Positions 3,404 to 61,536 of a stretch of DNA of 64,000 nt are shown one piece after another. Position numbers and translations under genes: made by a program. The stretch comes from Meghimatium bilineatum. Lineage: Eukaryota; Mollusca; Gastropoda; Stylommatophora; Philomycidae. The DNA lies in NCBI GenBank assembly GCA_034231615.1, contig CM067306.1, positions 42,208,761 through 42,272,760 of the forward strand, read 5' to 3'. Within the stretch, counting starts at the first letter, position 1; every line of letters starts with the position of its first letter. The notes beneath the pieces were generated by a model that made no database searches, was not told the DNA's origin, and saw nothing but the letters and a program-made list of their open reading frames with translations.

Positions 3404-3792
3404 TTTACAGAATACTTGCCCATACACAACTAACCTGCATAAGTTTGAGAGAACAGCTTGACCACACACAACTAACCTAAATAAGTTTGATAACAACTTG
3501 ACCACACACAACTAACCTGCATAAGTTTGAGAGAACAACTTGACCACACACAACTGACCTGCATAAGTTTGAGAGAACAACTTGACCACACACAACTAAC
3601 CTGCATAAGTTTGAGAGAACAACTTGACCACACACAACTGACCTGCATAGGTTTGAGAGAACAACTTGACCACACACAACTAACCTGCATAAGTTTGAGA
3701 GAACAACTTGACCACACACAACTGACCTGCAGATGTTTGAGAGAACAACTTGACTATACACATCTGACCTGCATAAGTTTGAGAGACAAATG
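3404..3792. repeat. 42-bp minisatellite
   Basis: About nine copies of a 42-bp unit containing TTGACCACACACAACT and CATAAGTTTGAGAG. One copy is 2 bp short. The unit is 14 codons long, so open frames on both strands are by-products of the array. Confidence 0.92.
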
Positions 3793-4243: not shown

Positions 4244-4257
4244 AGTTATGAATCAGC

Positions 4258-6953
4258 ATCATAACATACATCCCCCGTTCAGCTGCCTAGTCAATGGTTG
4301 AACCTGCTCATATAACACACATCCCCCGTTCAGCTGCCTAGTCAATGGTTGAACCTGCTCATATAACACACATCCCCCGCTCAGCTGCCTAGTCAATGGT
4401 TGAACCTGCTCATATAACACACATCCCCCGTTCAGCTGCCTAGTCAATGGTTGAACCTGTTCATATAACACACATCCCCCACTCAGCTGCCTAGTCAATG
4501 GTTGAACCTGTTCATATAACACACATCCCCCGTTCAGCTGCCTAGTCAATGGTTGAACCTGTTCATATAACACACATCCCCCACTCAGCTGCCTAGTCAA
4601 TGGTTGAACCTGTTCATATAACACACATTCCCCGCTCAGCTGCCTAGTCAATTGTTGAGCCTGTTCATATAACACACATCCCCCACTCAGCTGACTAATC
4701 AATGGTTGAACCTGTTCATATAACACACATCCCCCACTCAGCTGCCTAGTCAATGGTTGAACCTGCACATATAACACACATCCCCTGCTCAGCTGCCTAG
4801 TCAATGGTTGAACCTGCTCATATAACACACATTCCCCGCTCAGCTGCCTAGTCAATGGTTGAACCTGCTCATATAACACACATTCCCCGCTCAGCTGCCT
4901 AGTCAATTGTTGAGCCTGTTCATATAACACACATCCCCCACTCAGCTGCCTAATCAATGGTTGAACCTGTTCATATAACACACATCCCCCACTCAGCTGC
5001 CTAGTCAATGGTTGAACCTGCACATATAACACACATCCCCTGCTCAGCTGCCTAGTCAATGGTTGAACCTGCTCATATAACACACATCCCCCGTTCAGCT
5101 GCCTAGTCAATGGTTGAACCTGCTCATATAACACACATCCCCCGTTCAGCTGCCTAGTCAATGGTTGAACCTGCTCATATAACACACATCCCCCGTTCAG
5201 CTGCCTAGTCAATGGTTGAACCTGCTCATATAACACACATCCCCCGTTCAGCTGCCTAGTCAATGGTTGAACCTGCTCATATAACACACATCCCCCGTTC
5301 AGCTGCCTAGTCAATGGTTGAACCTGCTCATATAACACACATCCCCCGCTCAGCTGCCTAGTCAATGGTTGAACCTGCTCATATAACACACATCCCCCGT
5401 TCAGCTGCCTAGTCAATGGTTGAACCTGCTCATATAACACACATTCCCCGCTCAGCTGCCGAGTCAATTGTTGAGCCTGTTCATATAACACACATCCCCC
5501 ACTCAGCTGCCTAATCAATGGTTGAACCTGTTCATATAACACACATCCCCCACTCAGCTGCCTAGTCAATGGTTGAACCTGCACATATAACACACATCCC
5601 CTGCTCAGCTGCCTAGTCAATGGTTGAACCTGCTCATATAACACACATCCCCCGTTCAGCTGCCTAGTCAATGGTTGAACCTGCTCATATAACACACATC
5701 CCCCGTTCAGCTGCCTAGTCAATGGTTGAACCTGCTCATATAACACACATCCCCCGTTCAGCTGCGTAGTCAATGGTTGAACCTGCTCATATAACACACA
5801 TCCCCCGTTCAGCTGCCTAGTCAATGGTTGAACCTGCTCATATAACACACATCCCCCGTTCAGCTGCCTAGTCAATGGTTGAACCTGCTCATATAACACA
5901 CATACCCCGCTCAGCTGCCTAGTCAATGGTTGAACCTGTTCATATAACACACATCCCCCACTCAGCTGCCTAGTCAATGGTTGAACCTGCACATATAACA
6001 CACATCCCCTGCTCAGCTGCCTAGTCAATGGTTGAACCTGCTCATATAACACACATCCCCCGTTCAGCTGCCTAGTCAATGGTTGAACCTGCTCATATAA
6101 CACACATACCCCGCTCAGCTGCCTAGTCAATGGTTGAACCTGCTCATATAACACACATCCCCCGTTCAGCTGCCTAGTCAATGGTTGAACCTGCTCATAT
6201 AACACACATCCCCCGCTCAGCTGCCTAGTCAATGGTTGAACCTGCTCATGTAACACAAATCCCCCGCTCAGCTGCCTAGTCAATGGTTGAACCTGCTCAT
6301 ATAACACACATCCCCCACTCAGCTGCCTAATCAATGGTTGAACCTGCTCATATAACACACATCCCCCGTTCAGCTGCCTAGTCAATGGTTGAACCTGCTC
6401 ATATAACACACATCCCCCGTTCAGCTGCCTAGTCAATGGTTGAACCTGCTCATATAACACACATCCCCCGCTCAGCTGCCTAGTCAATGGTTGAACCTGC
6501 TCATATAACACACATCCCCCGTTCAGCTGCCTAGTCAATGGTTGAACCTGCTCATATAACACACATCCCCCGCTCAGCTGCCTAGTCAATGGTTGAACCT
6601 GCTCATATAACACACATCCCCCGTTCAGCTGCCTAGTCAATGGTTGAACCTGCTCATATAACACACATCCCCCGCTCAGCTGCCTAGTCAATGGTTGAAC
6701 CTGCTCATATAACACACATCCCCCGTTCAGCTGCCTAGTCAATGGTTGAACCTGCTCATATAACACACATCCCCCGTTCAGCTGCCTAGTCAATGGTTGA
6801 ACCTGCTCATATAACACACATCCCCTGCTCAGCTGCCTAGTCAATGGTTGAACCTGCTCATATAACACACATCCCCCGTTCAGCTGCCTAGTCAATGGTT
6901 GAACCTGCTCATATAACACACATCCCCCGTTCAGCTGCCTAGTCAATGGTTGA
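4258..6953. repeat. 51-bp minisatellite, about 53 copies
   Basis: A long array of a 51-bp unit containing CAGCTGCCTAGTCAATGG, TTGAACCTGCTCATATAAC and ACACATCCCCCG. Variant units (for example TTGTTGAGCCTGTTC near 4650, 4905 and 5465, each followed by the same run of variants) recur in order, so local blocks have been amplified. The unit is 17 codons long. The minus strand therefore reads open for about 960 codons of a 17-residue repeat, but that frame begins with TTG and has no recognisable domain. I treat it as a non-coding array. Confidence 0.95.
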
Positions 6954-7077
6954 TCAGAAACCTGATTACTAGCGTCGTCTACAGCACGTGTTGACTTTCC
7001 TTGATCAAGACTAGGCTCCAGTTTAAAGACCTGTGCACAGAAAGGTAAACATGACCTGAAAAGCGAATTTGTATTAT

Positions 7078-7215
7078 TTCTGTGCATTTCGTTGGGCCGT
7101 CGTCTTTTTTGGCATGCAATTCCAAATATATAACTAGGACCCAACGAAAATCACAACAATAATAAAAAAAACGTAGCGAATGAAGTTTACTTTCTGTACA
7201 GATAGAAATCTTTAC
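7078..7215 (+). mobile_element. foldback/MITE-like element
   Basis: Shares the dispersed core CCAACGAAAATCACAACAAT and the end AACGTAGCGAATGAAG with copies near 7700, 11155, 15315, 16195, 53115 and 58385. The ends form a short inverted repeat (CATTTCGTT against AACGAATG). There is no coding capacity. It is probably a small non-autonomous DNA transposon. Confidence 0.6.
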
Positions 7216-16394: not shown

Positions 16395-16985
16395 ACATAT
16401 ATGAACACAACGAAGGAGAGCAGTTACCCTAGCAACACATGCATACATAGCGAGCACAAGCAATGGTCTCTGCATCACGCTTGACATACCGGTGGAGAGC
16501 AGAAGCACCAGCAATATACGTAAACACATCGATGGGGAGCAGTAACATCAGCAATACACGTAAACACATCGGTGGAGAGCAGTAACAACAGCAATACACG
16601 TAAACACATCGGTGAAGAGCAGTAGCACAAGCAACACGTAAACACATTGGTGGAGAGCAGTAGCACAAGCAACACGTAAACACATTGGTGGAGAGCAGTA
16701 GCACAAGCAACACGTAAACACATTGGTGGAGAGCAGTAGCACAAGCAACACGTAAACACATTGGTGGAGAGCAGTAGCACAAGCAACACGTAAACACATT
16801 GGTGGAGAGCAGTAGCACAAGCAACACGTAAACACATTGGTGGAGAGCAGTAGCACAAGCAACACGTAAACACATTGGTGGAGAGCAGTAGCGCAAGCAA
16901 CACGTAAACACATTGGTGGAGAGCAGTAGCACAAGCAACACGTAAACACATTGGTGGAGAGCAGTAGCACAAGCAATACATGTAA
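16395..16985. repeat. 38-bp minisatellite
   Basis: About fifteen units containing GCAGTAGCACAAGCAACACG and TAAACACATTGGTGGAGA. The first units are longer and more diverged. 38 is not divisible by three and the unit lacks minus-strand stops in any frame. All three minus frames therefore stay open for about 140-200 codons, cycling through the same peptide. None is a gene. Confidence 0.94.
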
Positions 16986-16989
16986 ATAT

Positions 16990-17574
16990 TAAGAGGAAGC
17001 AGTAAATACCAAAGGTAAGCACACATCGTGATGCCCTCGTCATTGAAAGATTGCTGATGCTTAATTTTGCATGAATCCCTTATCAATTATACATTCATGT
17101 GGACTCAGAGAATCATCCATCAAATTTGGCGCTATTTTAGTTTAGGAGGATGAACTCTGATGAACTCCACATGTACAGAAGAAGAACTCGGTTGTGTAAG
17201 GTAAAATACACACGTCATATCCATGTAACATGATATCTATGGAATCTTCGTTGCTTTTTGAATAAACCATTTTCCGTGTGTTCATCATATACATCGCAGG
17301 TTCGAAACACGGCCGTGGCGTTTTGTTTCCAAGTACATTATTCTGAAGTATCTGGAGATCTAAGCTCCCTCAGTGTTCCTTTTGTGTATGTGCGCGCGCA
17401 TCGGACTCCGATTTGGGCAGCTACAAAAGCCACGACAGCTGCAATACTTGGTTACCTTTTTTAGGTTGGCTGTTTAGATTTTGTGTGCCGAATTTTAAAT
17501 TGCGTACGCGGCACTCTATGGTGAAATGCGCAGCTAAGAAGTAGTATTGCTATAGATTATCGCTTGATGCTTCT
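16990..17574. other. no gene recognised
   Basis: Unique-looking sequence with only short uninformative frames. Confidence 0.4.
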
Positions 17575-23325: not shown

Positions 23326-23439
23326 GCTACGGAAAATTCTCCCGTCCTTCGATCTCAAAAATTCACAGAAGCATCTATGTCTTTTCAGTGTCCGGTGGAA
23401 CATAAGGCTGCCAATTGTTGCTCTTCAACGATTTTTGTG

Positions 23440-26360
23440 CTGCGCTGTCTTCTTCTGTGATGTGATGTCATCATTTTCTGTATGCGCTCTTCTTCTGCGA
23501 TGTGGTGTCATAATTTTCTGTGATGTCATCTTCTGTGCTGTGATGTCATATTCTCCGCTGTCTTCTGTGATGTCATCTTCTGTGCTGTGATGTCATCTTC
23601 TCAGCTGTCTTCTGTGCTGTGATGTCATCTTCTGTGCTGTGATGTCATCTTCTCAGCTGTCTTCTGTGCTGTGATGTCATCTTCTCAGCTGTCTTCTGTG
23701 CTGTGATGTCATCTTCTGTGCTGTGATGTCATCTTCTGTGCTGTGATGTCATATTCTCCGCTGTCTTCTGTGATGTCATCTTCTGTGCTGTGATGTCATC
23801 TTCTCAGCTGTCTTCTGTGCTGTGATGTCATCTTCTCAGCTGTCTTCTGTGCTGTGATGTCATCTTCTGTGCTGTGATGTCATCTTCTCAGCTGTCTTCT
23901 GTGCTGTGATGTCATCTTCTGTGCTGTGATGTCATCTTCTGTGCTGTGATATCATCTTCTGTGCTGTGATGTCATCTTCTCAGCTGTCTTCTGTGCTGTG
24001 ATGTCATCTTCTGTGCTGTGATGTCATCTTCTGTGCTGTGATGTCATCTTCTGTGCTGTGATGTCATCTTCTCAGCTGTCTTCTGTGCTGTGATGTCATC
24101 TTCTCAGCTGTCTTCTGTGCTGTGATGTCATCTTCTCAGCTGTCTTCTGTGCTGTGATATCATCTTCTGTGCTGTGATGTCATATTCTCCGCTGTCTTCT
24201 GTGATGTCATCTTCTGTGCTGTGATGTCATCTTCTCAGCTGTCTTCTGTGCTGTGATGTCATCTTCTCAGCTGTCTTCTGTGCTGTGATGTCATCTTCTG
24301 TGCTGTGATGTCATCTTCTCAGCTGTCTTCTGTGCTGTGATATCATCTTCTGTGCTGTGATGTCATCTTCTGTGCTGTGATGTCATCTTCTGTGCTGTGA
24401 TGTCATCTTCTCAGCTGTCTTCTGTGCTGTGATGTCATCTTCTGTGCTGTGATGTCATCTTCTGTGCTGTGATGTCATCTTCTGTGCTGTGATGTCATCT
24501 TCTCAGCTGTCTTCTGTGCTGTGATGTCATCTTCTCAGCTGTCTTCTGTGCTGTGATGTCATCTTCTGTGCTGTGATATCATCTTCTGTGCTGTGATGTC
24601 ATCTTCTGTGATGTGATGTCATCTTCTGTGCTGTGATGTCATCTTCTCAGCTGTCTTCTGTGCTGTTATGTCATCTTCTCAGCTGTCTTCTGTGCTGTGA
24701 TGTCATCTTCTGTGCTGTGATGTCATCTTCTCAGCTGTCTTCTGTGCTGTGATGTCATCTTCTGTGCTGTGATGTCATATTCTCCGCTGTCTTCTGTGAT
24801 GTCATCTTCTGTGCTGTGATGTCATCTTCTCCGATGTCTTCTTTTGTGCGGAGCTGGCCTCTTCTGTGCTGTGCTGTCATCTTCTGTGCTATGATGTCAT
24901 CTTTTGAACTATGATGTCATCTCTGTTGCAGTGATGTCTTCTGTGCTGTGATATCATCTTTATGTGATGTGGTGTAATCTTTACGTACCTTGATGTGATG
25001 CCATCTTCTGTACTGCAATGTCTTTTTTTCTATGCTGTCATCAGGGTTGTGATATAATCAGTGCTACAATATCTTCTTCTGTGCTACAATATCTTCTGTG
25101 CTACAATATCTTCTTCTGTGCTACAATATCTTCTGTGCTGCAATATCTTCTTCTGTGCTGTGATGTCATCTTCTGTGCTGTGATGTCATCTTCTCAGCTG
25201 TCTTCTGTGCTGTGATGTCATCTTCTCAGCTGTCTTCTGTGCTGTGATGTCATCTTCTGTGCTGTGATATCATCTTCTGTGCTGTGATGTCATATTCTCC
25301 GCTGTCTTCTGTGATGTCATCTTCTGTGCTGTGATGTCATCTTCTCAGCTGTCTTCTGTGCTGTGATGTCATCTTCTCAGCTGTCTTCTGTGCTGTGATG
25401 TCATCTTCTGTGCTGTGATGTCATCTTCTCAGCTGTCTTCTGTGCTGTGATGTCATCTTCTGTGCTGTGATGTCATCTTCTGTGCTGTGATGTCATCTTC
25501 TGTGCTGTGATGTCATCTTCTCAGCTGTCTTCTGTGCTGTGATGTCATCTTCTGTGCTGTGATGTCATCTTCTGTGCTGTGATGTCATCTTCTGTGCTGT
25601 GATGTCATCTTCTCAGCTGTCTTCTGTGCTGTGATGTCATCTTCTCAGCTGTCTTCTGTGCTGTGATGTCATCTTCTGTGCTGTGATATCATCTTCTGTG
25701 CTGTGATGTCATCTTCTGTGCTGTGATGTCATCTTCTGTGCTGTGATGTCATCTTCTCAGCTGTCTTCTGTGCTGTTATGTCATCTTCTCAGCTGTCTTC
25801 TGTGCTGTGATGTCATCTTCTGTGCTGTGATGTCATATTCTCCGCTGTCTTCTGTGATGTCATCTTCTGTGCTGTGATGTCATCTTCTCCGATGTCTTCT
25901 TTTGTGCGGAGCTGGCCTCTTCTGTGCTGTGCTGTCATCTTCTGTGCTATGATGTCATCTTTTGAACTATGATGTCATCTCTGTTGCAGTGATGTCTTCT
26001 GTGCTGTGATATCATCTTTATGTGATGTGGTGTAATCTTTACGTACCTTGATGTGATGCCATCTTCTGTACTGCAATGTCTTTTTTTCTATGCTGTCATC
26101 AGGGTTGTGATATAATCAGTGCTACAATATCTTCTTCTGTGCTACAATATCTTCTGTGCTACAATATCTTCTTCTGTGCTACAATATCTTCTGTGCTGCA
26201 ATATCTTCTTCTGTGCTGTGATGTCATCTTCTTGGCTGTCATGTGCTGTGCTATGATGTCAACTTTATGTGATGTCATCGTTATGTAATGTGATGTAATC
26301 TTTTGTGCTGTGATGAGATTTCTATGTGATGTGATGTCATCTTCTGTGCTGTGATGTCTT
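23440..26360. repeat. compound minisatellite with higher-order duplication
   Basis: Nearly 3 kb built mainly from a 20-bp unit (TGTGCTGTGATGTCATCTTC) mixed with a 12-bp insert (TCAGCTGTCTTC), giving 20- and 32-bp steps. A diverged non-repetitive stretch (TTGTGCGGAGCTGGCCTC through to ACAATATCTTCTTCTGTGC) occurs twice, at about 24840 and 25898. A block of about 1058 bp has therefore been duplicated in tandem. The unit contains TGATGTCA, close to a CRE-type site, at every repeat. Confidence 0.95.
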
Positions 26361-26882
26361 TTTCTGTGTCCACGAGATTCTAATTGATTTACACAGAATG
26401 ATACTAGAGATTTATTGCTTTTAATCTCTAGGGATAAAACAAACTTGTCTATTTTCCAGGAAGGTCATGCGAAAATGTAATGCAAGGTCTTATAGCTTTA
26501 CCGCAGATACCTCATAAAGTTTCGAAATGGAAGTTCGCCTATCGTCTAATGTGTTAGGCGACAAGTGCCTAGCACTCCCGGCTGCGTGTCTCGGCATGCA
26601 CAGTTCAAACGAAGAAAATAGTATGTACAACAGATAGATATTAGCATAATTTATTCTCACGTGAACGGAATACGAGAATGAGCGATCGTTCTTCCTTGAA
26701 TTGGCTTTTCGTCTGAATGAATGTTTCAATCGTGATGTTAGGATTGCCCAAATGAAAGCAACCTGACACAGGGTTCACACGGAAGTCGGCACGAACTAAC
26801 TAGTCTCGAGTGTAAACATCATGTATGTGTGCTACTGTTCGTGTAATTATAATTTATGAATAAACATTTGTTGGGACTAGTA
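26361..26882. other. no gene recognised
   Basis: A 79-codon minus frame (26490-26729) has no domain. No other feature is supported. Confidence 0.4.
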
Positions 26883-28040: not shown

Positions 28041-28064
28041 GGACAGAGTGCTGTGGAGAGCCAT
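28041..28064 (+). pseudogene. LINE 3' coding fragment, left of LTR element
   Basis: Encodes DRVLWRA-type residues of a LINE ORF2 C-terminus. The frame is interrupted by the LTR element and resumes at 35119. The last four bases, CCAT, are the target duplication. Confidence 0.6.
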
Positions 28065-29512
28065 TGTAACAGTATATTCTTTTGACGAAGAAGAGGACTA
28101 GTATTATTATTGTTGAGAAAGTGTTACTGTATATTATTATTGTTGCGTTCCGAACCCTGGGTTCTGTGTTTTGATCAACAATGACTGCTGGCGTAGATCT
28201 CTTCTTGGTTTTAATAAGTGCTTATCAATGAATGCAGAGACACTTCTTGTTACAGAAATAAAATGTCGTTTAATATAAACATCAAGCCAACGACACAACC
28301 AATATTATACTCTGGAGTAATTGATATCTCCGAGACGTATAATATATCATCAATATAAAATATACAATGTCAAGATTTGCATACTATTCTAACACTTCCA
28401 GAATTATAGGCGCACGTTATGACACGAGCTTAATGAGATTATGAACTATCTCATTATTTTACTAGACGTATAATCTATCGCCAATATAAACTATACAGTG
28501 TCAAGATTGCATACTATTCTAACACTTCCAGAATTAAGCACACGTTCTGGTACGAGCTTTAATGAGATTATGAACTATCTCATTATTTTACTAGACGTAT
28601 AATCTATCGCCAATATAAACTATACAGTGTCAAGATTGCATACTATTCTAACACTTCCAGAATTAAGCACACGTTCTGGTACAAGCTTAGTGAGATTCTA
28701 TACCATCTCATTAATCTACTACTAATCTCACTTTTTGGTCAACTAACTTTGTTTCCAGTTGTTGAAGTCAAACAAGGGACTTGTCTCCTGTGAGACAAGT
28801 ACTAACTCTCCACACACGTCCGGGGGGACTCTGTGTGATCCTGTCGACTGATCCGGGATTCTCGACTGATGCTGGGATTCTCCTCTCATCTCTTTTTGTG
28901 TCTTCTGGTGAGATTTTTAGCTCCCCCCTCGTCTTAGTCTCCCACCTATCCACTCTCTTCTCGTCCGCACGTCACTGCTTCTGACTCCGCCTCTACATTA
29001 TCACCTGTCAAACTCCTGTACGCGTTTCTTAGACCATGCGTAACGTTTGATGTTCCTCTCTGGTCGGAGGCTATGCCCTTGGCGTTACGCACTTAATACT
29101 CTTGCCACTTCCATCTTCCATTGTCTGGTCGTTTCAAGTATTCGCGAGTTCAGACGGCTTGTGTGAGTTTGTAGACTCTTGTCTGAACCTCGTCCAAACA
29201 TCTCATTGTCCTTTCTGGTGTGTGGTGTAATGGCGTCGTCTGCCACCTACGATCGAGTGCGTGGATGCATTCTTTCTGATAATTACCTTTTGCCCTTGGG
29301 CCAAACCGTGTAAGCTTGTCTCAGACTTTCTGTCTGACATCTGCGCGACAACTCGTCTGCAATTTAAGGTATCTGTATCAACATTTTCACAGGAGCAAAA
29401 CATTCGATGTGTTGCATTTCCCCAGTTCATCTCTTGTTAACCATGAAGGGTTCTCACTTCTTACTGTGAAACCCCCTGCCTGTGAAGATTTCTGCAACCA
29501 GATACTATCACA
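28065..29512 (-). repeat. 3' LTR (left copy)
   Basis: 1448 bp. It holds three tandem copies of a unit of about 130 bp (starts near 28338, 28464 and 28593) carrying GACGTATAATCTATCGCC and CTAACACTTCCAGAATTA. Differences from the other LTR were seen at 28084, 28087 and 29249. Confidence 0.93.
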
Positions 29513-29523
29513 CTCGCCCCCTT
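29513..29523 (-). promoter_or_regulatory. polypurine tract candidate
   Basis: On the minus strand AAGGGGGCGAG directly precedes the 3' LTR. This is where the plus-strand DNA primer of LTR elements lies. One C interrupts the purine run. Confidence 0.65.
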
Positions 29524-29753
29524 GTCACAAAAAAACTTTATGCGGCTTTGTGTCGAGGCGAATCTAAGTCTATACTTAATTCTGCTGAGGCGGAAGGCCA
29601 AGCATAAATTTTTCCTGATATAATAATTAAAAGAACAGTGATCCCTCCAACCATTCTGTCTTTTTTATCAAGCTACAACTTTGTATCAACTATGTACATT
29701 CCATGGGACGTTATATACAAATTACTTAATAACCTAGTTTCGCCATCCTCCGG

Positions 29754-32294
29754 TTAGTTCTGTTTCATATGATCCATACCTAGAACGATTTGGCGAGCTA
29801 ATCTGAACGCTGCCTCATTCCTCGGTTTTCTCCTTACCGCCTGTATCGTAGGTTGGGTATTAACGGTGTCTGCAACGTCTTTACATTGCCTACTCGCGGC
29901 CCGAGTGTTCCGGAAAGGTGCGTCCTCCGTGCTGTCCTCCGTAGGCTGAGGTGGTGCCACCACTTTGACTGTCTCACTGTGAGTCCTCGGTTCCGTTTCG
30001 GTGCTGTCGTGTGACTCGCACTCGTCTGTATCAGTGTAGTTATCCGCTGCGATTTCGTTGTCATCAGTGTCGTGGTCTGATGTGCTGTCGTCCTCGTTCT
30101 CTTCGAGCCTTTCCGACGTCACCTCTTCTAGGTGTTCTTCCGTGGCTGGCTCGTCCGGAACCCTGGACTCGGTCCTGAGCTCCTGAGCCTCTTCGGTCTC
30201 TGTGATTACCCTTCCGGCGCTGCCCATGTAGCCGGTGTTCCAATAATCGTCGTCGTCGTCGCTCAACGCCACGGCGTATGTAGCTTGGCGTTTCCTCCGA
30301 ACCCTGGGTTCTGCTCTAGGAACGTCGTGGGGGTTGTGGTCCTTTTGTAGATGCTGTACCTGCGTCCGTATCGTTCTTTTTCCTTTATTATGCTTTATGA
30401 TGTACGACACTGGACCTGTTCTTTCTATCACGACGTAGCCCTTCTCCCAGCGCGCTTCCAGCTTTGAATTTCTGCAGTGCTTTTTATAATACACGTTGTC
30501 GCCTACTGCAAATTCCTGAAGTGAGGCTCCCTTGTCCGCGTACTTCTTCCTCTTTTCTTCGGCCTTCGTAACGTTCGTCGAAACCGCTCTGTGGGCTTTG
30601 TGCATTTCTTGCAACGTGATCTCTACAACATCTTCTCCCAGGTATTTGCGTCTAGGTTTCAGAATGTGGTCTAAGGGAAGCATAGGTTCTCTGCCATGCA
30701 GCAGGAAGAACGGGGAGAATCCCGTGCTCTCATTTGAATTAGTCCGGATGGCCGAAAGCGCTTGATTGAGATGTACGTCCCAATTTCTGTCATCTCCTCC
30801 TATGCTCTTGGCGAGAACGTCCGTCAGCGTTTTATGCTGACGTTCGTTAATTCCATTGGCTTGCGGCCAATAAACTGAGGTGGTCACGTGCCTGACGTTT
30901 AGTGACCTTAAGGCCTTTTCGAATTTCTTGCTAGTGAATTCGCCCCCGTTGTCCGTTAGTATAATCTGAGGGCAGCTGTGTCGTGGCACAAACTCGGTCA
31001 GGAGCAAATTCACCACCGTCTCCGTAGTCTTGTCCGCTACGGCGAAAGCTTCTGGCCACCTGCTGTAGCAGTCGGTGAATTGTACTATGTACCGGTTTCC
31101 AGTCCATGTCTCGGGAAACGGTCCTGCTAGGTCGATGCTAACCTTCTGCATCGCATATTGTGGTTTGTCAGTTTCTTGTAAAGGGCACTTTGTCTCTTTC
31201 AAGTTTCGCAGCCGGCAGGTTTCGCAATTTGCGACCTTCTGCTGCACATCCCTAAACATATTTGGCCAGTAATATTTCCTCTTGAGGGCGTCCATCCCTT
31301 TGTCCCGGCCCATGTGTCCGTTATCTTCGTGGTATTGGGTCAGCACTCGCGCTCGTAGTGCTGCCGGAACGTATACCTTTAGCTCGGGGTTTGTGTCCTT
31401 CTGTGCTATATAGCACAGCAAGTTGTCACCTTCAGACAAGGTGAAGCATTCCACACTTTTGTCGTCTTTATTTGACAACAACATTTCTATTTTTCGTTTA
31501 AGATCTGGGTCCCTTTCTTGCTCCGTCTTAATGTCTACAGCCAGGTCTGTGTCTCTCGAACTCGCTATCGGGAATCGTTCCTCCGTCCTATCCAGTGGTT
31601 CGGCGTCCTTCCGTGACCTGTTTTCAGTCCTCTCGGAAGGTCGCTGTAAGTCCTGTTTCCTCCTGGGCTTGCGGCGTTCTTCAACCTGCCTTCTTAGGGT
31701 GTGCAGATCTCTTGATAAATCGCCGTCCGATTTCTCTCTTTTTGTCCCGTCCCGTTCCACTGCTGCGATTACTTGGTTACGGTTGTCACCCTGGTTAGGT
31801 GGCTTATGGTTGGCCATTTCATCGTTTCTTGGTCGGGCTGGGGTGATAGACACACCTTTGGTTTGTCTTATGTGGTCCGCCCACTGAAGACATTTTTCTG
31901 TGTCCTTCGAGTTGCTAAACTCGACAAAGGCGAACGGACGACGTTTGCCTTCTTTGTTTACAGGTAGACACACCTCTTTGATTTCTCCGAACCAGCGGAA
32001 GTATTTGGCTATTTCTGACTCTCGCACTTTGCTGTTTATTTTGTCAATAAACAATCTCCCCCCGTTGTACGCTCCTGGTGCCAACATGGGTACAACTCTG
32101 TTTCCCGTTACTGCTCTATCTATGCGCCTTTGACTGGTTACAAAGAGCGTGTCTAGTGTGCTCCTACTATGTCTCTTTCGCTCCTTCCGCATTACTACTG
32201 CTATCCTTCCCACTGTTCTGTCTCTATTAAGGGGGACCTTGCCTTGGGGTCCGCTCCGGTAGGTCCCTATCTCCGAGCGGTACGTCCGTTTCCC
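29754..32294 (-). CDS. RRM-integrase polyprotein of LTR retrotransposon
   Basis: Numbering is from the GTG at 32213, the first residue of an 819-residue reading. The open frame actually extends upstream to 32324 and no ATG is suitable, so entry by -1 frameshift from gag is likely. That would add about 844 residues to Gag. Residues about 53-127 look like an RRM: RNP2-like LFIDKI at 54-59, RNP1-like RRPFAFVEF at 91-99. A charged linker follows. From about 222 there is the integrase N-terminal region with HHCC zinc ligands (H295, H300, C330, C333). Then comes the catalytic core D361, D421, E457 (D-D-35-E), and a C-terminal module near 565-625. The tail is highly acidic. No protease, RT (YxDD) or RNase H motif occurs. 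All integrase key residues are present and there is no internal stop. Confidence 0.9.
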   Translation of the reverse strand, partial: GKRTYRSEIGTYRSGPQGKVPLNRDRTVGRIAVVMRKERKRHSRSTLDTLFVTSQRRIDRAVTGNRVVPMLAPGAYNGGRLFIDKINSKVRESEIAKYFRWFGEIKEVCLPVNKEGKRRPFAFVEFSNSKDTEKCLQWADHIRQTKGVSITPARPRNDEMANHKPPNQGDNRNQVIAAVERDGTKREKSDGDLSRDLHTLRRQVEERRKPRRKQDLQRPSERTENRSRKDAEPLDRTEERFPIASSRDTDLAVDIKTEQERDPDLKRKIEMLLSNKDDKSVECFTLSEGDNLLCYIAQKDTNPELKVYVPAALRARVLTQYHEDNGHMGRDKGMDALKRKYYWPNMFRDVQQKVANCETCRLRNLKETKCPLQETDKPQYAMQKVSIDLAGPFPETWTGNRYIVQFTDCYSRWPEAFAVADKTTETVVNLLLTEFVPRHSCPQIILTDNGGEFTSKKFEKALRSLNVRHVTTSVYWPQANGINERQHKTLTDVLAKSIGGDDRNWDVHLNQALSAIRTNSNESTGFSPFFLLHGREPMLPLDHILKPRRKYLGEDVVEITLQEMHKAHRAVSTNVTKAEEKRKKYADKGASLQEFAVGDNVYYKKHCRNSKLEARWEKGYVVIERTGPVSYIIKHNKGKRTIRTQVQHLQKDHNPHDVPRAEPRVRRKRQATYAVALSDDDDDYWNTGYMGSAGRVITETEEAQELRTESRVPDEPATEEHLEEVTSERLEENEDDSTSDHDTDDNEIAADNYTDTDECESHDSTETEPRTHSETVKVVAPPQPTEDSTEDAPFRNTRAASRQCKDVADTVNTQPTIQAVRRKPRNEAAFRLARQIVLGMDHMKQN
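32233..32294 (-). promoter_or_regulatory. -1 ribosomal frameshift signal: slippery heptamer plus predicted pseudoknot
   Basis: The minus strand at 32294-32288 reads G GGA AAC in the gag zero frame, a classic X XXY YYZ slippery site. Seven bases later stem 1 starts: CCGCTC (32280-32275) pairs with GAGCGG (32256-32251), extended by GG/CC with a bulged G. The loop GGGACCT (32267-32261) is fully complementary to AGGTCCC (32239-32233), making stem 2 of an H-type pseudoknot. The gag TAG lies inside the loop region. A -1 shift enters the RRM-integrase frame exactly. The same heptamer is known from type D retrovirus gag-pro and from PEG10. Confidence 0.88.
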
Positions 32295-33127
32295 GACGTC
32301 CAGGCCATTGGGTGTCCTGTCTCCTCATGACGTCTTGTTTCTGGCTGAGCGTATTGTCTACGCTCCTGGTTCCTGCCACTTCTTCTGAACTCTGTTTCAT
32401 CTAACCTCTCGGTTCTGTGTTCTCGTATCCGGCCCCGGTGGTCCTCATCTCTACCTCTGTCGACTTCAGCTGGGGTGATTTGGTTCCTCTCTTGTCTCTC
32501 CGACCCCATGTTATATTCTACCCACCGTGTGGTGCGTTCTTTTCTTGTCGCTATCTGGATGGCCTTTTCTAACGTTGTCGGCTCTGCCTCTAATACGTGG
32601 CGTCTTATTTCTCCTGGCTTCAATCCATCTATGAAGTAGTGTAGCAACTGTTTGCCCACCCCTTTTTCTCCCATTTCATTTGGGAACGCTTCCTCGGCCA
32701 AATTGATAAGCCTATCTCCGAATGCCTCTATTGATTCATCCGGTTTTTGGCTAATTTTGGCTAATTTTGTCAGCGCATAATGCTCCCCTGTGAGGCCGGC
32801 ATACCTCCTTTCTAACTCTGCTCGTAGTTCCTTCCAAGATTCCGTCGGAGTTCTTGCTAACCTTTTAAGGATTACATCAGCAACTAATCCACGGCTTGCT
32901 TGTAGCGCTATGCTTCGTTTTGCGTCGTCATTGGCTTTTGTCACAAATGCATATTTTTCAATCTCGCCTATCCAATCTTTGAAACGGTGCTCTTCTTCTG
33001 CGAACGGTGCGATCGCCGTAGCCGCTCCCTGATACCTCAAGGTTTCCCATAGATCCCGTATCGAACCTCTTTCTGTTTCTGTGTGGTTGATTTCCGATTT
33101 TGAGCTATCTTCCATCTTTTGTTCCAT
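32267..33127 (-). CDS. gag: Gag protein of LTR retrotransposon
   Basis: 286 residues from a true ATG at 33127 to TAG at 32267. Residues about 45-195 match the retrotransposon Gag (capsid-like) pattern. Signs include a W-x-GEIEKY helix, SWKELRAELERRYAG, then KISQKPDESIEAFGDRL (the usual Q-x-x-ESV-like helix), and FIDGLKPGEIRRHV. The C-terminal third is rich in R, E and H. No CCHC zinc knuckle is present, so RNA binding may depend on this basic tail or on the RRM in the fused frame. Gag presumably forms the particle that packages element RNA. The last 20 bp overlap the frameshift signal. Confidence 0.88.
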   Translation of the reverse strand: MEQKMEDSSKSEINHTETERGSIRDLWETLRYQGAATAIAPFAEEEHRFKDWIGEIEKYAFVTKANDDAKRSIALQASRGLVADVILKRLARTPTESWKELRAELERRYAGLTGEHYALTKLAKISQKPDESIEAFGDRLINLAEEAFPNEMGEKGVGKQLLHYFIDGLKPGEIRRHVLEAEPTTLEKAIQIATRKERTTRWVEYNMGSERQERNQITPAEVDRGRDEDHRGRIREHRTERLDETEFRRSGRNQERRQYAQPETRRHEETGHPMAWTSGNGRTARR

Positions 33128-33224
33128 TTTGTTAATGTAGTCAATTCGAACACAAATTTATATTATTTTCTAGGACAAAAAAATAAACATATTATCGAAC
33201 ACAATTAATATTTTCAATTAACTG

Positions 33225-33520
33225 AATCATTGTTCTCCTAGATACATCTTATACACAACTGTTCATTGTCAATTAACTAACCTATTGTTGTCACACTTGT
33301 CTGTAGAAAACTTGTTCCTTCTAGATATATCTTATACACAACTGTTCATTGTCAATTAACTAATCCATTGTTCTCCCAATGATCTGTAAGGAAAAACGTG
33401 TTCCTCCTAGATATATCTTATACACAACTGTTCATTGTCAATTAACTAATCCATTGTTCTCACACTTATCTGTAGAAAACTTGTTCCTTCTAGATATATC
33501 TTATACAAAACTGTTCATTG
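33225..33520. repeat. leader tandem repeat, 83-86-bp unit
   Basis: About 3.6 copies in the untranslated leader between 5' LTR and gag, each with CTAGATATATCTTATACAC, CTGTTCATTGTCAATTAAC and ATCCATTGTTCTC. Confidence 0.9.
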
Positions 33521-33600
33521 TCAAATACCTTAATACTCACAATCCGAATCTTCTTGAACACATGTCGGAATTTGTAACGAATCCATGAATATTTAAACAT

Positions 33601-33670
33601 ACATTGGCGTAGATCAATATAGTGGTTAGTACTTCGTGTTGGCCGGGAACGTACTGGTCCTAGGCCTCAG
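33601..33670 (+). ncRNA. tRNA-like segment abutting the 5' LTR
   Basis: The plus strand, antisense to the element, reads GATCAATATAGTGGTTAGTAC then TTCGTGTTGGCCG. This resembles the 5' half of a tRNA, most like tRNA-His (TATAGTGGTTAGTAC with a GTTGTGGCC anticodon arm). The 3' half lacks a good T-loop. It ends exactly at the LTR border, where the primer-binding site should be. No conventional TGG-starting primer site is seen in the first bases inside the LTR. Confidence 0.45.
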
Positions 33671-35118
33671 TGTAACAGTATATTCTTTTCACAAAGAAGA
33701 GGACTAGTATTATTATTGTTGAGAAAGTGTTACTGTATATTATTATTGTTGCGTTCCGAACCCTGGGTTCTGTGTTTTGATCAACAATGACTGCTGGCGT
33801 AGATCTCTTCTTGGTTTTAATAAGTGCTTATCAATGAATGCAGAGACACTTCTTGTTACAGAAATAAAATGTCGTTTAATATAAACATCAAGCCAACGAC
33901 ACAACCAATATTATACTCTGGAGTAATTGATATCTCCGAGACGTATAATATATCATCAATATAAAATATACAATGTCAAGATTTGCATACTATTCTAACA
34001 CTTCCAGAATTATAGGCGCACGTTATGACACGAGCTTAATGAGATTATGAACTATCTCATTATTTTACTAGACGTATAATCTATCGCCAATATAAACTAT
34101 ACAGTGTCAAGATTGCATACTATTCTAACACTTCCAGAATTAAGCACACGTTCTGGTACGAGCTTTAATGAGATTATGAACTATCTCATTATTTTACTAG
34201 ACGTATAATCTATCGCCAATATAAACTATACAGTGTCAAGATTGCATACTATTCTAACACTTCCAGAATTAAGCACACGTTCTGGTACAAGCTTAGTGAG
34301 ATTCTATACCATCTCATTAATCTACTACTAATCTCACTTTTTGGTCAACTAACTTTGTTTCCAGTTGTTGAAGTCAAACAAGGGACTTGTCTCCTGTGAG
34401 ACAAGTACTAACTCTCCACACACGTCCGGGGGGACTCTGTGTGATCCTGTCGACTGATCCGGGATTCTCGACTGATGCTGGGATTCTCCTCTCATCTCTT
34501 TTTGTGTCTTCTGGTGAGATTTTTAGCTCCCCCCTCGTCTTAGTCTCCCACCTATCCACTCTCTTCTCGTCCGCACGTCACTGCTTCTGACTCCGCCTCT
34601 ACATTATCACCTGTCAAACTCCTGTACGCGTTTCTTAGACCATGCGTAACGTTTGATGTTCCTCTCTGGTCGGAGGCTATGCCCTTGGCGTTACGCACTT
34701 AATACTCTTGCCACTTCCATCTTCCATTGTCTGGTCGTTTCAAGTATTCGCGAGTTCAGACGGCTTGTGTGAGTTTGTAGACTCTTGTCTGAACCTCGTC
34801 CAAACATCTCATTGTCCTTTCTGGTGTGTGGTGTAATGGCGTCGTCTGCCACCTGCGATCGAGTGCGTGGATGCATTCTTTCTGATAATTACCTTTTGCC
34901 CTTGGGCCAAACCGTGTAAGCTTGTCTCAGACTTTCTGTCTGACATCTGCGCGACAACTCGTCTGCAATTTAAGGTATCTGTATCAACATTTTCACAGGA
35001 GCAAAACATTCGATGTGTTGCATTTCCCCAGTTCATCTCTTGTTAACCATGAAGGGTTCTCACTTCTTACTGTGAAACCCCCTGCCTGTGAAGATTTCTG
35101 CAACCAGATACTATCACA
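33671..35118 (-). repeat. 5' LTR (right copy)
   Basis: 1448 bp, collinear with the left LTR at a constant offset of 5606 bp and without indels. It would supply the promoter for minus-strand transcription. No TATA box was assigned with confidence. Confidence 0.93.
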
Positions 35119-35170
35119 CCATGACCGCCTACGCCAGCCGTCATGGCAGCTGATGATGATGATAATGGAT
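35119..35170 (+). pseudogene. LINE 3' coding fragment, right of LTR element
   Basis: After the CCAT duplication the frame from 28041-28064 continues as TAYASRHGS and stops, followed by a GAT-rich tail. This matches the W-R-x-x-x-AYA-x-RH ending of the LINE at 43129-43690. It shows the element's target was an older LINE tail. Confidence 0.65.
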
Positions 35171-36029: not shown

Positions 36030-36491
36030 AGGCATGTCTGTAGGCAGTCTCAATCGGAATTTCAAGAGAAAAGGCACTTCTTAATAGAAGGTGTATTCAG
36101 TCCGCCGCCTCACTCCTCTTCTCCCCCTCCCCATTGTATTCACATGCGTACGTTATTATTGCTGTTGTAGTTTTATTTGAACCTGTTTCATTCTTCAACC
36201 CCTCCCCCAACCATTTCATTTTTCACCGAAGATGTTCTATTGAATAGCCGCCCCCCCCCCAACCGTTTCAATTTTCACCTGAGATGGTATTTCTACTGAA
36301 TAAAAGGTCAAATCGTGTGTCGATTGTGTACCTGTAGCTTATTTATTCTTTAAAAAACATTGATTCACAAAGCAATAATCAATAAGCTGGTGAATTCTGG
36401 TTTATAAGAAAAAAAAGTCACAGCAAAATAAACCCGATATTAGTCATGTCTTTGCGTTATTATTTAGTTTCCGGGGCCGAAAGGAAAGAAA
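36030..36491. other. no gene recognised
   Basis: C-rich tracts near 36110 and 36250, otherwise unique. No gene is supported. Confidence 0.4.
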
Positions 36492-36763
36492 ATAACAGAC
36501 ACATCATAACATCTGCATGTGGTTAGAAGTGGCAGCAAATAACAGACACACTGTAACCTTCACTGCATGTGGTTAGAAGTGGCAGCAAATAACAGACACA
36601 CTGTAACCTTCACTGCATGTGGTAAGAAGTGGCAGCAAATAACAGACACACTGTAACCTTCACTGCATGTGGTTAGAAGTGGCAGCAAATAACAGACACA
36701 CTGTAACCTTCACTGCATGTGGTTAGAAGTGGCAGCAAATAACAGACACACTAACTTTCCCAG
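36492..36763. repeat. 50-bp minisatellite
   Basis: About five copies of a unit containing GCATGTGGTTAGAAGTGGCA and AACAGACACACTGTAACCTT. Confidence 0.93.
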
Positions 36764-38232: not shown

Positions 38233-38309
38233 ACATTTGAAAATTAGGAAACTTAGATCATTACTTGTAATCTCAAATCACAGTTTATAATCTCAGATGA
38301 TCATTAATT

Positions 38310-39062
38310 GTAATATTAGTTAGATTATTGCTTGTAATCTCCGTTAGATCACTGCTTGTAATCTCCGTTAGATCACTGCTTGTAATATCCATTAGATCGC
38401 TGCTTGTGATTTCAGTTAGATCACTGCTTGTAATATCCGTTATATCACTGCTTGTAATATCCGTTATATCACTGCTTGTAATATCCGTTATATCACTGCT
38501 TGTAATATCCGTTATATCACTGCTTGTAATTTCAGTTAGATCACTGCTTGTAATATCCGTTATATCACTGCTTGTAATTTCAGTTAGATCACTGCTTGTA
38601 ATATCCGTTATATCACTGCTTGTAATATCCGTTATATCACTGCTTGTAATTTCAGTTAGATCACTGCTTGTAATATCCGTTATATCACTGCTTGTAATAT
38701 CCGTTATATCACTGCTTGTAATCTCCGTTATATCACTGCTTGTAATCTCCGTTAGATCACTGCTTGTAATATCCGTTATATCACTGCTTGTAATTTCAGT
38801 TAGATCACTGCTTGTAATATCCGTTATATCACTGCTTGTAATATCCGTTATATCACTGCTTGTAATTTCAGTTAGATCACTGCTTGTAATATCCGTTATA
38901 TCACTGCTTGTAATTTCAGTTAGATCACTGCTTGTAATCTCCGTTAGATCACTGCTTGTAATCTCCGTTAGATCACTGCTTGTAATCTCCGTTAGATCAC
39001 TGCTTGTAATCTCCGTTAGATCGCTGCTTGTAATTTCAGTTAGATCACTGCTTGTACTCTCA
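38310..39062. repeat. 24-bp minisatellite
   Basis: About 31 copies of ATCACTGCTTGTAATATCCG plus TTAT/TTAG. The unit is eight codons long, so the plus strand is open for 270 codons of an LLVISVIS-type repeat starting at a TTG. That frame is not treated as a gene. Confidence 0.95.
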
Positions 39063-39394
39063 CTTAGAACACTAAAGATGACTAGTCACATCATTTCATT
39101 GTCTGTGTTGATTCGTGCATTTAATTGGCTGGCTACATAAAATGTAAAAGTAATGTAAAGTTTAACCCATAACATTTATTAATGACGCATGGGTGTAAGA
39201 TGTTAGCGATCTCACATTTTAGTGGCTCTGCTATATGAGGACGGCTTCCATCTCTTCTTCCTAACAGATTTTACTTCACGGATTAATATACTAAAAAAAA
39301 CATAAAGCGCATGGCCGTGGAAAGGCTGGGTATATCCGGGAGTCGTTGCGATCTGAAAAAACATTTCTGTCTCAACTAGGGAATGAATTCATGG

Positions 39395-59354: not shown

Positions 59355-60254
59355 ATTATTAGGTATTAGGTATGTTGGTTATCATCTTCGGAAACGTCCA
59401 TAGGTGCTCCGATCTCCGCTTCAGTAAATCTCTCAGGGTATAACGGCTTTTGGTTCCAGTTCTATGTTGGTTCACTACTCTTTTTGAAATCTTTGTCAGG
59501 GGTTCTCTTCGGGCCACGCCTGCATTCTTGATATTGACTCATGCTTATTCATCTCAAAATCCTCTGATCGTGAGGACTCACGAAGAGCAGTGAGTATGTC
59601 TGCTCGGTCAATAGGCTGACCGTCTGTTGTGGTGGCGAGACTAGCTAACTTGTCGGCCAGTTCGTTTCCCTCCACGCCCGCATGTCCGGGGACAAAAACA
59701 AGTGTGAGTTTTCGTAATGATGGCCGAATTTTAGCTCTCTCTAATGACTCCGCCCATTCCCTACGTACATCGCCTGTTTTGACCTTCTGAATCATATTCA
59801 GTGAATCACTTAGTATGCATGCATGGGAATAGGTTAGCGATTCCAGCCAGTAAAGTGCCTGAGTTACGGCGAATACTTCCATAGTTAGACTGCTCGTTGT
59901 TGCGGTAAAGGCACCACTGGCTTCGTGTACTGTTTTCCCTTTTGCTCTGACAGTAAAGGCCCATGCGCAACGATGGTGACGGATGACCGACCCGTCCGTG
60001 TAAATAACATCTGAATCATCGGCATTCTCGCAAATTAGTGCCTTGACCGCAGCATCCACGCTTAATTGGCTGTGTTTCCTGCACTGTTGAGCGTAATGAC
60101 GGTCTTGACTGCCTCTTGAAAGAACGTAGGAATAGGTATTCTTTCCTCGACAGGAGCTATGTCTTCTGGGGCGCTGATATGTTTAACGGGATCATCGGCC
60201 CGACACATCCACGATTTGCCTCTCTTAAGCCTGATTCCCTTCACAAGAGGGAGC
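59355..60254 (-). pseudogene. LINE fragment with well-preserved RNase HI domain
   Basis: The minus frame from 60059 to 59496 (187 residues) carries an RNase HI domain. It has VIYTDGSV (Asp), LTMEVFAVTQAL (Glu), CILSDSLNMI (Asp) and VFVPGHAGVEGNELADKLAS (His and final Asp), so all four catalytic positions are present. The upstream 60254-60062 frame (ELPLVKGIRLKRG to SAGNTAN) is the RT-RNaseH linker and is separated from it by a stop/frame change. It is truncated at both ends. The type is that of RNase HI-bearing LINE clades. Confidence 0.85.
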
Positions 60255-60629: not shown

Positions 60630-61235
60630 ATCTCCTGTATAAGATATACTTCCAACAGCTTTTACAGCAGTATCTCCTGTATAAGATATACTTCCAACAG
60701 TTGCTGCAGCAGTATCTCCTGTATAAGATATACTTCCAACAGTTGCTGCAGCAGTATCTCCTGTATAAGATATACTTCCAACAGTTGTTGCAGCAGTATC
60801 TCCTGTATAAGATATACTTCCAACAGTTGCTGCAGCAGTATCTCCTGTATAAGATATACTTCCAACAGTTGCTGCAGCAGTATCTCCTGTATAAGATATA
60901 CTTCCAACAGTTGCTGCAGCAGTATCTCCTGTATAAGATATACTTCCAACAGTTGCTGCAGCAGTATCTCCTGTATAAGATATACTTCCAACAGTTGCTG
61001 CAGCAGTATCTCCTGTATAAGATATACTTCCAACAGTTGCTGCAGCAGTATCTCCTGTATAAGATATACTTCCAACAGTTGTTGCAGCAGTATCTCCTGT
61101 ATAAGATATACTTCCAACAGTTGCTGCAGCAGTATCTCCTGTATAAGATATACTTCCAACAGTTGTTGCAGCAGTATCTCCTATACTTCCAACAGTTGTT
61201 ACAGCAGTATCTCCTGTATAAGAAATACTTTCAAA
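60630..61235. repeat. 42-bp minisatellite
   Basis: About 14 nearly identical copies containing TTCCAACAGTTGCTGCAGCA and GTATCTCCTGTATAAGATAT. The unit is 14 codons long and stop-free on both strands, so long frames occur on both. They are by-products. Confidence 0.95.
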
Positions 61236-61263
61236 AATTTTCTGAAAAACCAGGTCCTTTTAT

Positions 61264-61536
61264 CAGTGGTTTTCAATCTCATTGGACCCGTTGCCCCATA
61301 TTTGGGACACATTTCTTTCTGTGCTCCCCCCCCCTCTTCTGATGCCTTATAAATGTCATTGGTTTTCATTTTTCAAGTCATGAAAGATTTTTTAAGCTTT
61401 ATTGATATTATTATTGTGTTTATCGCTCAAGTGATTACCTTACTGTCGATTCAATTTCAAAATTGTCCTCCGTGACCCTCCTGTAAATCTTCGTAACTGA
61501 CAGGGGGCGCCGTTTGGCACATTTTGAGAACCACTG
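61264..61536. mobile_element. hAT-type MITE
   Basis: CAGTGGTTTTCAATCTC at the left and TTTTGAGAACCACTG at the right are inverted ends. The interior has GGGGGCGCCGTTTGG and a C run, typical of this MITE type. The 8-bp flanks match poorly. Confidence 0.75.

Follow-up and report, generated by a model that had tools for sequence, protein, structure and literature searches.

How can a long terminal repeat (LTR) retrotransposon that encodes a complete integrase and no reverse transcriptase (RT) be propagated? The question is raised by an element on the minus strand of a 64,000-nucleotide stretch of the Meghimatium bilineatum genome (Mollusca, Gastropoda; GenBank assembly GCA_034231615.1, contig CM067306.1, positions 42,208,761-42,272,760), the whole of which we refer to as the window. 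The element occupies window positions 28065-35118 and consists of two LTRs that enclose gag, a second open frame (ORF2) and a 3' untranslated region (UTR). Based on its relatives in the host genome, we consider it likely that the window element is one part, here called type C, of a Ty3-type LTR retrotransposon divided into several components that mobilize each other.

Coding capacity of the window element

The gag frame (32267-33127; like all features of the element, on the minus strand) encodes 286 amino acids with an arginine-rich tail and matches Pfam Retrotrans_gag with 25.2 bits (cut-off 24.1), as expected for a Gag of the Ty3/Retrotrans_gag kind. Because it contains no cysteine, this Gag lacks a CCHC knuckle. 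ORF2 lies in the -1 frame relative to gag and comprises 856 codons (29757-32324) for an RRM, an integrase and an acidic tail. The GTG start of a listed 819-codon frame is not its true beginning, the frame being open from 32324; ORF2 residues are numbered here as in the 819-codon frame. The RRM (Pfam stretch, residues 54-114, 31872-32054) was matched by RRM_1 with an E-value of 5e-11 (42.7 bits, cut-off 20.7) and contains LFIDKI and RPFAFVEF, which we take to be the RNP motifs, including the aromatic residues of RNP1 and RNP2. Further downstream lie an Integrase_H2C2 zinc domain (residues 282-337, 31203-31370; 67.6 bits) and the integrase core rve (residues 355-448, 30870-31151; 60.3 bits), with the catalytic E457 just behind it. 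The integrase motifs are complete, i.e. HHCC from H295, and D361, D421 and E457 as DD35E.

No match to RVT, RNase H or protease families was found by Pfam in the 819-codon frame, and regular expressions for CCHC, the protease D[ST]G and [YF]xDD matched nothing in gag or the ORF2 frame. Among proteins related in pol, complete or partial, the best 13 (P0001-P0013) aligned only from nucleotides 3558-3582, corresponding to about ORF2 residue 219-227, the integrase part; the RT and RNase H parts of the 59 proteins compared gave no tblastn match elsewhere in the window element. No hidden RT remnant was found by Pfam, motifs or tblastn. A sequence-only reading of this locus had described LTRs, gag and an 819-codon frame with an RRM and a complete integrase, and had seen no protease, YxDD or RNase H motif. 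The repeat, Pfam and motif data confirm this description, and the profile search returned RRM_1, Integrase_H2C2 and rve and no RVT family, in support of an element that is non-autonomous but has retained the coding capacity for Gag and a complete integrase.

The integrase is nearest to Ty3-type pol, with up to 44% identity to proteins P0001-P0013, in which the order is protease (PR), RT, RNase H (RH) and integrase (IN). Among the near matches in the protein search, only P0002 came from a named species, Mytilus coruscus (43% identity, with 52% of the query covered). Protein searches with ORF2 residues 1-235 and with gag returned no match, and no relatives were found in viral contigs, prokaryote contigs or phages. 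A single-sequence AlphaFold prediction of ORF2 residues 1-240 was uninformative (pLDDT 45).

Three complementary types with common ends

The host genome assembly comprises 1.61 Gb in 32 contigs. Scoring covered the best 55 of the 1248-1249 first-look candidates for integrase (ORF2) and 81 of the 227 for RT, and the ORF2 copy counts are lower bounds for this reason. ORF2 has at least 61 genome matches, 12 of which run from residue 1 (residue 3 in one case) to at least residue 778 at 91-100% identity. Eleven of these near-complete copies are free of stops, and six further matches cover most of the frame at 60-66% identity with at most one stop. The many copies with open frames rule out a single decayed copy; other copies, which would set the window element apart from a unique oddity, are thus present in the host.

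The family falls into three complementary types that have LTR termini, polypurine tract and 3' UTR in common. Type A encodes a Gag that bears a CCHC knuckle, followed by a tail, type B has the layout Gag-RRM-PR-RT-RH without integrase, and type C, to which the window element belongs, has the layout Gag-RRM-integrase. The order PR-RT-RH-IN was not found in any one family element among those examined, type C carrying IN only and type B PR-RT-RH only; by the sequence homology of its parts, not by layout, the window element is Ty3-type. Its 3' UTR (29513-29753) includes the polypurine tract ACAAGGGGGCGAG, and tract and LTR start are identical in the 11 loci of types A, B and C that were compared. 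The LTR of a type A copy equals that of the window element over the 617 nt tested, and the LTRs of a type B copy are nearly identical to it.

Type B became visible through gag, for which we found 146 genome matches and cut out 30 loci for reading. In eight of the 30 (L012, L013, L016, L018, L019, L022, L024 and L032), protease and RT follow the same Gag and RRM. The RRM hence predates the split of RT and integrase, which contradicts the earlier proposal that an internal deletion combined with RRM capture had produced the element. In the type B copy on contig C3 (L043), which has matches to RRM, protease, RVT_1 and RNase H but none to integrase, RT-RH leads directly into the family 3' UTR and LTR. 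The anticipated RT relatives with the same LTRs thus exist, but those that were read are not full-length, as they lack integrase. The window copy has an RRM and no CCHC, and elements of its kind are present in many copies. The RRM may still replace the CCHC knuckle, but this idea is weakened by L026, a diverged type C copy with CCHC and RRM together.

In the type A copies L041 and L042, a single frame of ∼600 amino acids encodes a Gag 51-53% identical to the window Gag, a CCHC knuckle and an acidic tail. This tail is the one that ends the window ORF2 (residues 681-819, 29757-30173), with 86-88% identity to L041. A search with type A gave 81 matches, 29 of them nearly full length at 89-100% identity (three of these form one tandem array). 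Nearly all of the near-full-length matches have a stop within the query's length, which we take to be the normal end, because L042 ends there and it is the query copy that reads on. Some copies are arranged in evenly spaced tandem arrays, i.e. type A at C22:40142827-40152661 and C2:47222106-47231231 (spacings 4010 and 3735 bp) and type C at C16:48122223-48136908 (about 5557 bp); such arrays may reflect amplification by LTR recombination or assembly error.

The separation of RT from integrase was followed locus by locus, by coordinates and through the shared 3' ends. At 29 of 30 RT loci, no integrase was found in the 1.5 kb behind the match; these are not 30 independent tests, because some belong to one element and some matches are partial. 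Among the places listed, each of the 61 integrase matches (50 clusters) is separated from any of the 90 RT matches (56 clusters) by 158 kb or more. In addition, a 26-nt sequence that spans the polypurine tract and the start of the LTR occurs at 102 genome sites with up to two mismatches (reversed control, 0). Within 1.2 kb upstream of the 100 junctions listed, the coding match was to type A in 43 cases, C in 15, B in 10 and both A and B in one, and 31 had none. At none of the 100 were both RT and integrase found within 6 kb upstream. This census used all 61 integrase, 90 RT and 81 type A places; with 37 of the 61, 17 of the 90 and 47 stretches from the 81, the counts were the same. One junction without coding match (L074, C23:72507900-72508614) is a mosaic A/B 3' end behind a 108-codon open stretch in which Pfam found no match, and it belongs to an array in which four junctions recur at intervals of 4871 bp. 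Junctions of this class possibly represent a further cargo type.

Selection, exchange and a proposed mutual dependence

The median dN/dS was 0.08 for RT-RH (20 pairs of type B copies) and 0.15 for the integrase (21 pairs of type C copies), with 0.18-0.23 for gag and 0.26-0.30 for protease; the pairs are not independent, and rows with stops were left out of the ratios. The acidic tail gave 0.39-0.66. By this measure, RT in type B and integrase in type C are under purifying selection. Between the window element and the diverged copy L027, the integrase (residues 227-420) has a saturated dS and a dN of 0.109, indicating that integrase has long been kept in elements without RT. In contrast, the gag of L026, which is related to L027, differs from the window gag by a dS of only 0.22, and gag must therefore have moved between lineages. 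Recent insertions are found on both sides of the split: the type B copy on contig C3 lacks integrase, yet it has one LTR difference in 1421 positions and a 4-bp duplication, ATGC, at its flanks, and the 1448-bp LTRs of the window copy, which has no RT, have three differences.

For the RRM, dN/dS across copies had been suggested as a check. The RRM proper (residues 47-127) gave a pN/pS of 0.28 within B, within C and between B and C (pooled counts without L026, L027, L058, L062, L029 and L066). The constraint is weaker than that on RT or integrase. Over the RRM segment, which includes codons behind the RRM, the median dN/dS was 0.62 at dS < 0.1 and 0.34 at dS 0.1-0.5. A value of 3.0 for the window element versus L012 comes from very few changes and likewise includes codons behind the RRM boundary.

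Gag sequences are not sorted by type B or C (six changes versus a shuffled mean of 6.9, 155 of 500 shuffles being as low; each place entered the trees once), and some are identical across types. Fixed differences between B and C are first seen at residue 129 of ORF2, immediately after the RRM, and this boundary is the same in all B and C rows compared; in the window it lies at 31829-31830 and marks the end of the Gag-RRM module shared with type B. An apparent sorting of the RRM by type (three changes against an average of 10.4 in shuffles, with none of 500 as low) was rejected, because the signal came from codons at residue 129 and behind, outside the RRM. For residues 47-127 the sorting is weak, with eight changes versus a mean of 10.2 (37-45 of 500 as low), or six versus 8.7-8.8 without four deep rows (10-14 of 500). 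Exchange extends to type A, since an A-type capsid domain is present in the type C copies L028, L030 and L035 and in the type B copy L032 (77-89% identity, depending on stretch and partner); in L028 it is followed by a window-type gag tail. The simplest origin of such mosaics would be template switching within particles that the types share, and the mosaic gag sequences suggest that the types are packaged together.

How would ORF2 be expressed? The gag and ORF2 frames overlap by 58 nt, stop included, and the overlap contains the slippery heptamer GGGAAAC in the zero frame of gag (32288-32294; 0.023 expected by chance). Seven nucleotides behind it, an H-type pseudoknot is predicted at 32233-32280 (CCGCTC/GAGCGG and GGGACCT/AGGTCCC, stems of 6 and 7 bp), whose score was equalled in one of 300 dinucleotide shuffles and at none of 132 other element positions. 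The heptamer is present in all aligned B and C rows that reach the site (some are cut at the locus end) and is altered in L021, which was typed as neither. Most aligned B and C copies retain the pseudoknot pairs or have wobble pairs in their place, and a few rows have an altered stem base (e.g. L006 and L020). Two type C copies with an RRM only 52% identical likewise have GGGAAAC in a -1 overlap. In type A, heptamer and pairing are absent and the single frame is read through, and in L006, L018 and L022 (plus others, by open-frame length) gag is already in the ORF2 frame. ORF2 is thus probably expressed by -1 frameshifting at GGGAAAC with the pseudoknot.

In the model that we propose, type C would supply Gag and, by -1 frameshifting, Gag-RRM-integrase; type B would supply Gag and Gag-RRM-PR-RT-RNase H; and type A would supply Gag with CCHC knuckle. 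The three RNAs would be packaged together, the RT of B copying all types and the integrase of C inserting all of them, so that A, B and C would be three payloads between common ends, each type depending on the others and no complete helper being involved. The RRM would be an old part of the lineage that binds the elements' own RNA and, being present in both frameshift products, may bind the common RNA ends. Such mutual dependence would most simply explain why both halves are under selection, why no complete copy was found among the junctions examined, and why the types exchange sequence. More tentatively, and with some doubt on our part, the family may be described as a multipartite animal LTR retrotransposon, in which three or perhaps more segments, each integrating on its own and all with common ends, form one replicating unit, RT and integrase are carried apart, and an RRM in both pol segments gathers the segment RNAs into shared particles.

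Several observations weigh against mutual dependence. Eleven RT-RH copies are close to full length with an identity of 92% or more, but only five of them contain no stop, and the RRM is, as noted, less constrained than RT or integrase. At L071, the sole exception among the 30 RT loci, RT and integrase stand together; this is a distant relative with stops, its integrase is not among the 61 integrase places, and it implies that other Ty3 elements could help. Furthermore, of the 31 junctions without coding match one was read, and with only part of the first-look candidates scored, a rare complete copy could be missed. The last two points bear on the chief rival, an unseen complete helper: A, B and C would be deletion derivatives of an extant master (Gag-RRM-PR-RT-RH-IN) that mobilizes all of them, without mutual dependence. 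Autonomous and non-autonomous LTR partners with common ends are well known, e.g. RLG_Cereba and RLG_Quinta (PMC11302176), and a master could sit among the remaining candidates or at the other 30 junctions without coding match. We nevertheless regard it as unlikely, as RT and integrase were found together within 6 kb at none of the 100 listed junctions, selection keeps integrase in RT-less elements and RT in integrase-less ones, and the uniform B/C boundary speaks against repeated fresh deletion.

Still less probable is that an unrelated or distant complete Ty3 element of the L071 kind provides the functions missing from A, B and C. The protein database contains many relatives with complete pol, and one decayed relative, L071, is present in the host, but L071 has no match to the family LTR or 3' UTR, and such a helper would explain neither the selection on B RT and C integrase nor why types B and C have exchanged their 5' module. 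Finally, the equally spaced tandem arrays could be assembly errors, and the family an artefact or a chance set of decayed copies; given the many dispersed copies on many contigs, their open frames and the few LTR differences, we consider this very improbable.

Known divided retroelements and further features of the window

In searches of the PMC literature (most subscription journals and all preprints lie outside it), we recognized neither an RRM in the pol of any LTR retrotransposon nor a divided element of this class. Plant RNA viruses often have divided genomes. Among viral retroelements, a bipartite genome is called unique in the florendovirus paper (PMC4241990), where these members of the Caulimoviridae are described as two complementary, partly redundant protein sets with a nearly identical noncoding region. 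The complementary gene sets and common noncoding ends of a bipartite retroelement are likewise found in A, B and C. Florendoviruses, however, are plant pararetrovirus fossils in which the capsid part is apart from the RT part (PMC4241990), whereas the present family belongs to the Ty3-type LTR elements of an animal, includes young insertions, has RT apart from integrase and carries an RRM. Judged by its gene content, the family would work like a bipartite retroelement of the florendovirus type; it is not a member of the Caulimoviridae, because it has LTRs, an integrase and Ty3-type parts.

Rice ePVCVL and ePVCVL2 (PMC5491270) similarly have complementary defects and a regulatory sequence kept alike by recombination between partners. 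They are plant viral fossils whose shared part is noncoding sequence plus MP (PMC5491270); in the present family, the shared parts are both ends and a coding Gag-RRM module, and three types exist. The bipartite florendoviruses and the complementary rice pararetroviruses are the nearest precedents. Wheat RLG_Cereba and RLG_Quinta are LTR partners that share LTR parts, and Quinta, like type A, has only Gag and a further domain; RLG_Cereba is complete (PMC11302176), whereas no complete partner was found here within 6 kb of the 100 listed junctions. The window element itself lacks essential enzymes and has its ends in common with partners, as non-autonomous elements do. In those LINEs that have an RRM, it is located in ORF1 of these non-LTR elements. 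They resemble the present family as retrotransposons with an RRM as RNA-binding domain (PMC4120745), but here an LTR element has the RRM in its pol, downstream of a predicted frameshift.

If the model of mutually dependent parts is true, a retrotransposon is able to persist as a set of which each part alone would be classed as a defective or non-autonomous element. The family would then also offer a natural system for studying how different segments come together in one particle, and would extend the known parts of LTR retrotransposons by an RRM downstream of a frameshift site.

The 5' LTR of the window element (33671-35118) and its 3' LTR (28065-29512) are direct repeats of 1448 bp, the 5' LTR starting with TGTGATAG and ending with TGTTACA. 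The two are flanked by ATGG at 35119-35122 and 28061-28064, respectively, a 4-bp target duplication; TG...CA ends and a short target duplication are those of Ty3/gypsy LTRs. Each LTR has an internal 129-nt tandem duplication (28430-28688 and 34036-34294). The leader between 5' LTR and gag (33128-33670) contains internal direct repeats, with two copies of 127 nt at 33235-33530. No TGG-type primer-binding site was found in the first 30 nt behind the 5' LTR (33641-33670), where the window element and three other loci (L012, L014 and L018) have a common CTG and then diverge.

Elsewhere in the window, minus-strand open frames at 59496-60059 and 2090-2620 look like a non-LTR RNase H piece and an RT-end piece, respectively. 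An array of 51-bp repeats, ∼95% alike, at 4257-7144 contains a 961-codon open frame on the minus strand and is probably a gene-free satellite. Other tandem repeats are located at 23433-26368, 38253-39140, 60662-61342, 16429-17086 and 36463-36762, and some of these contain long repetitive open frames.
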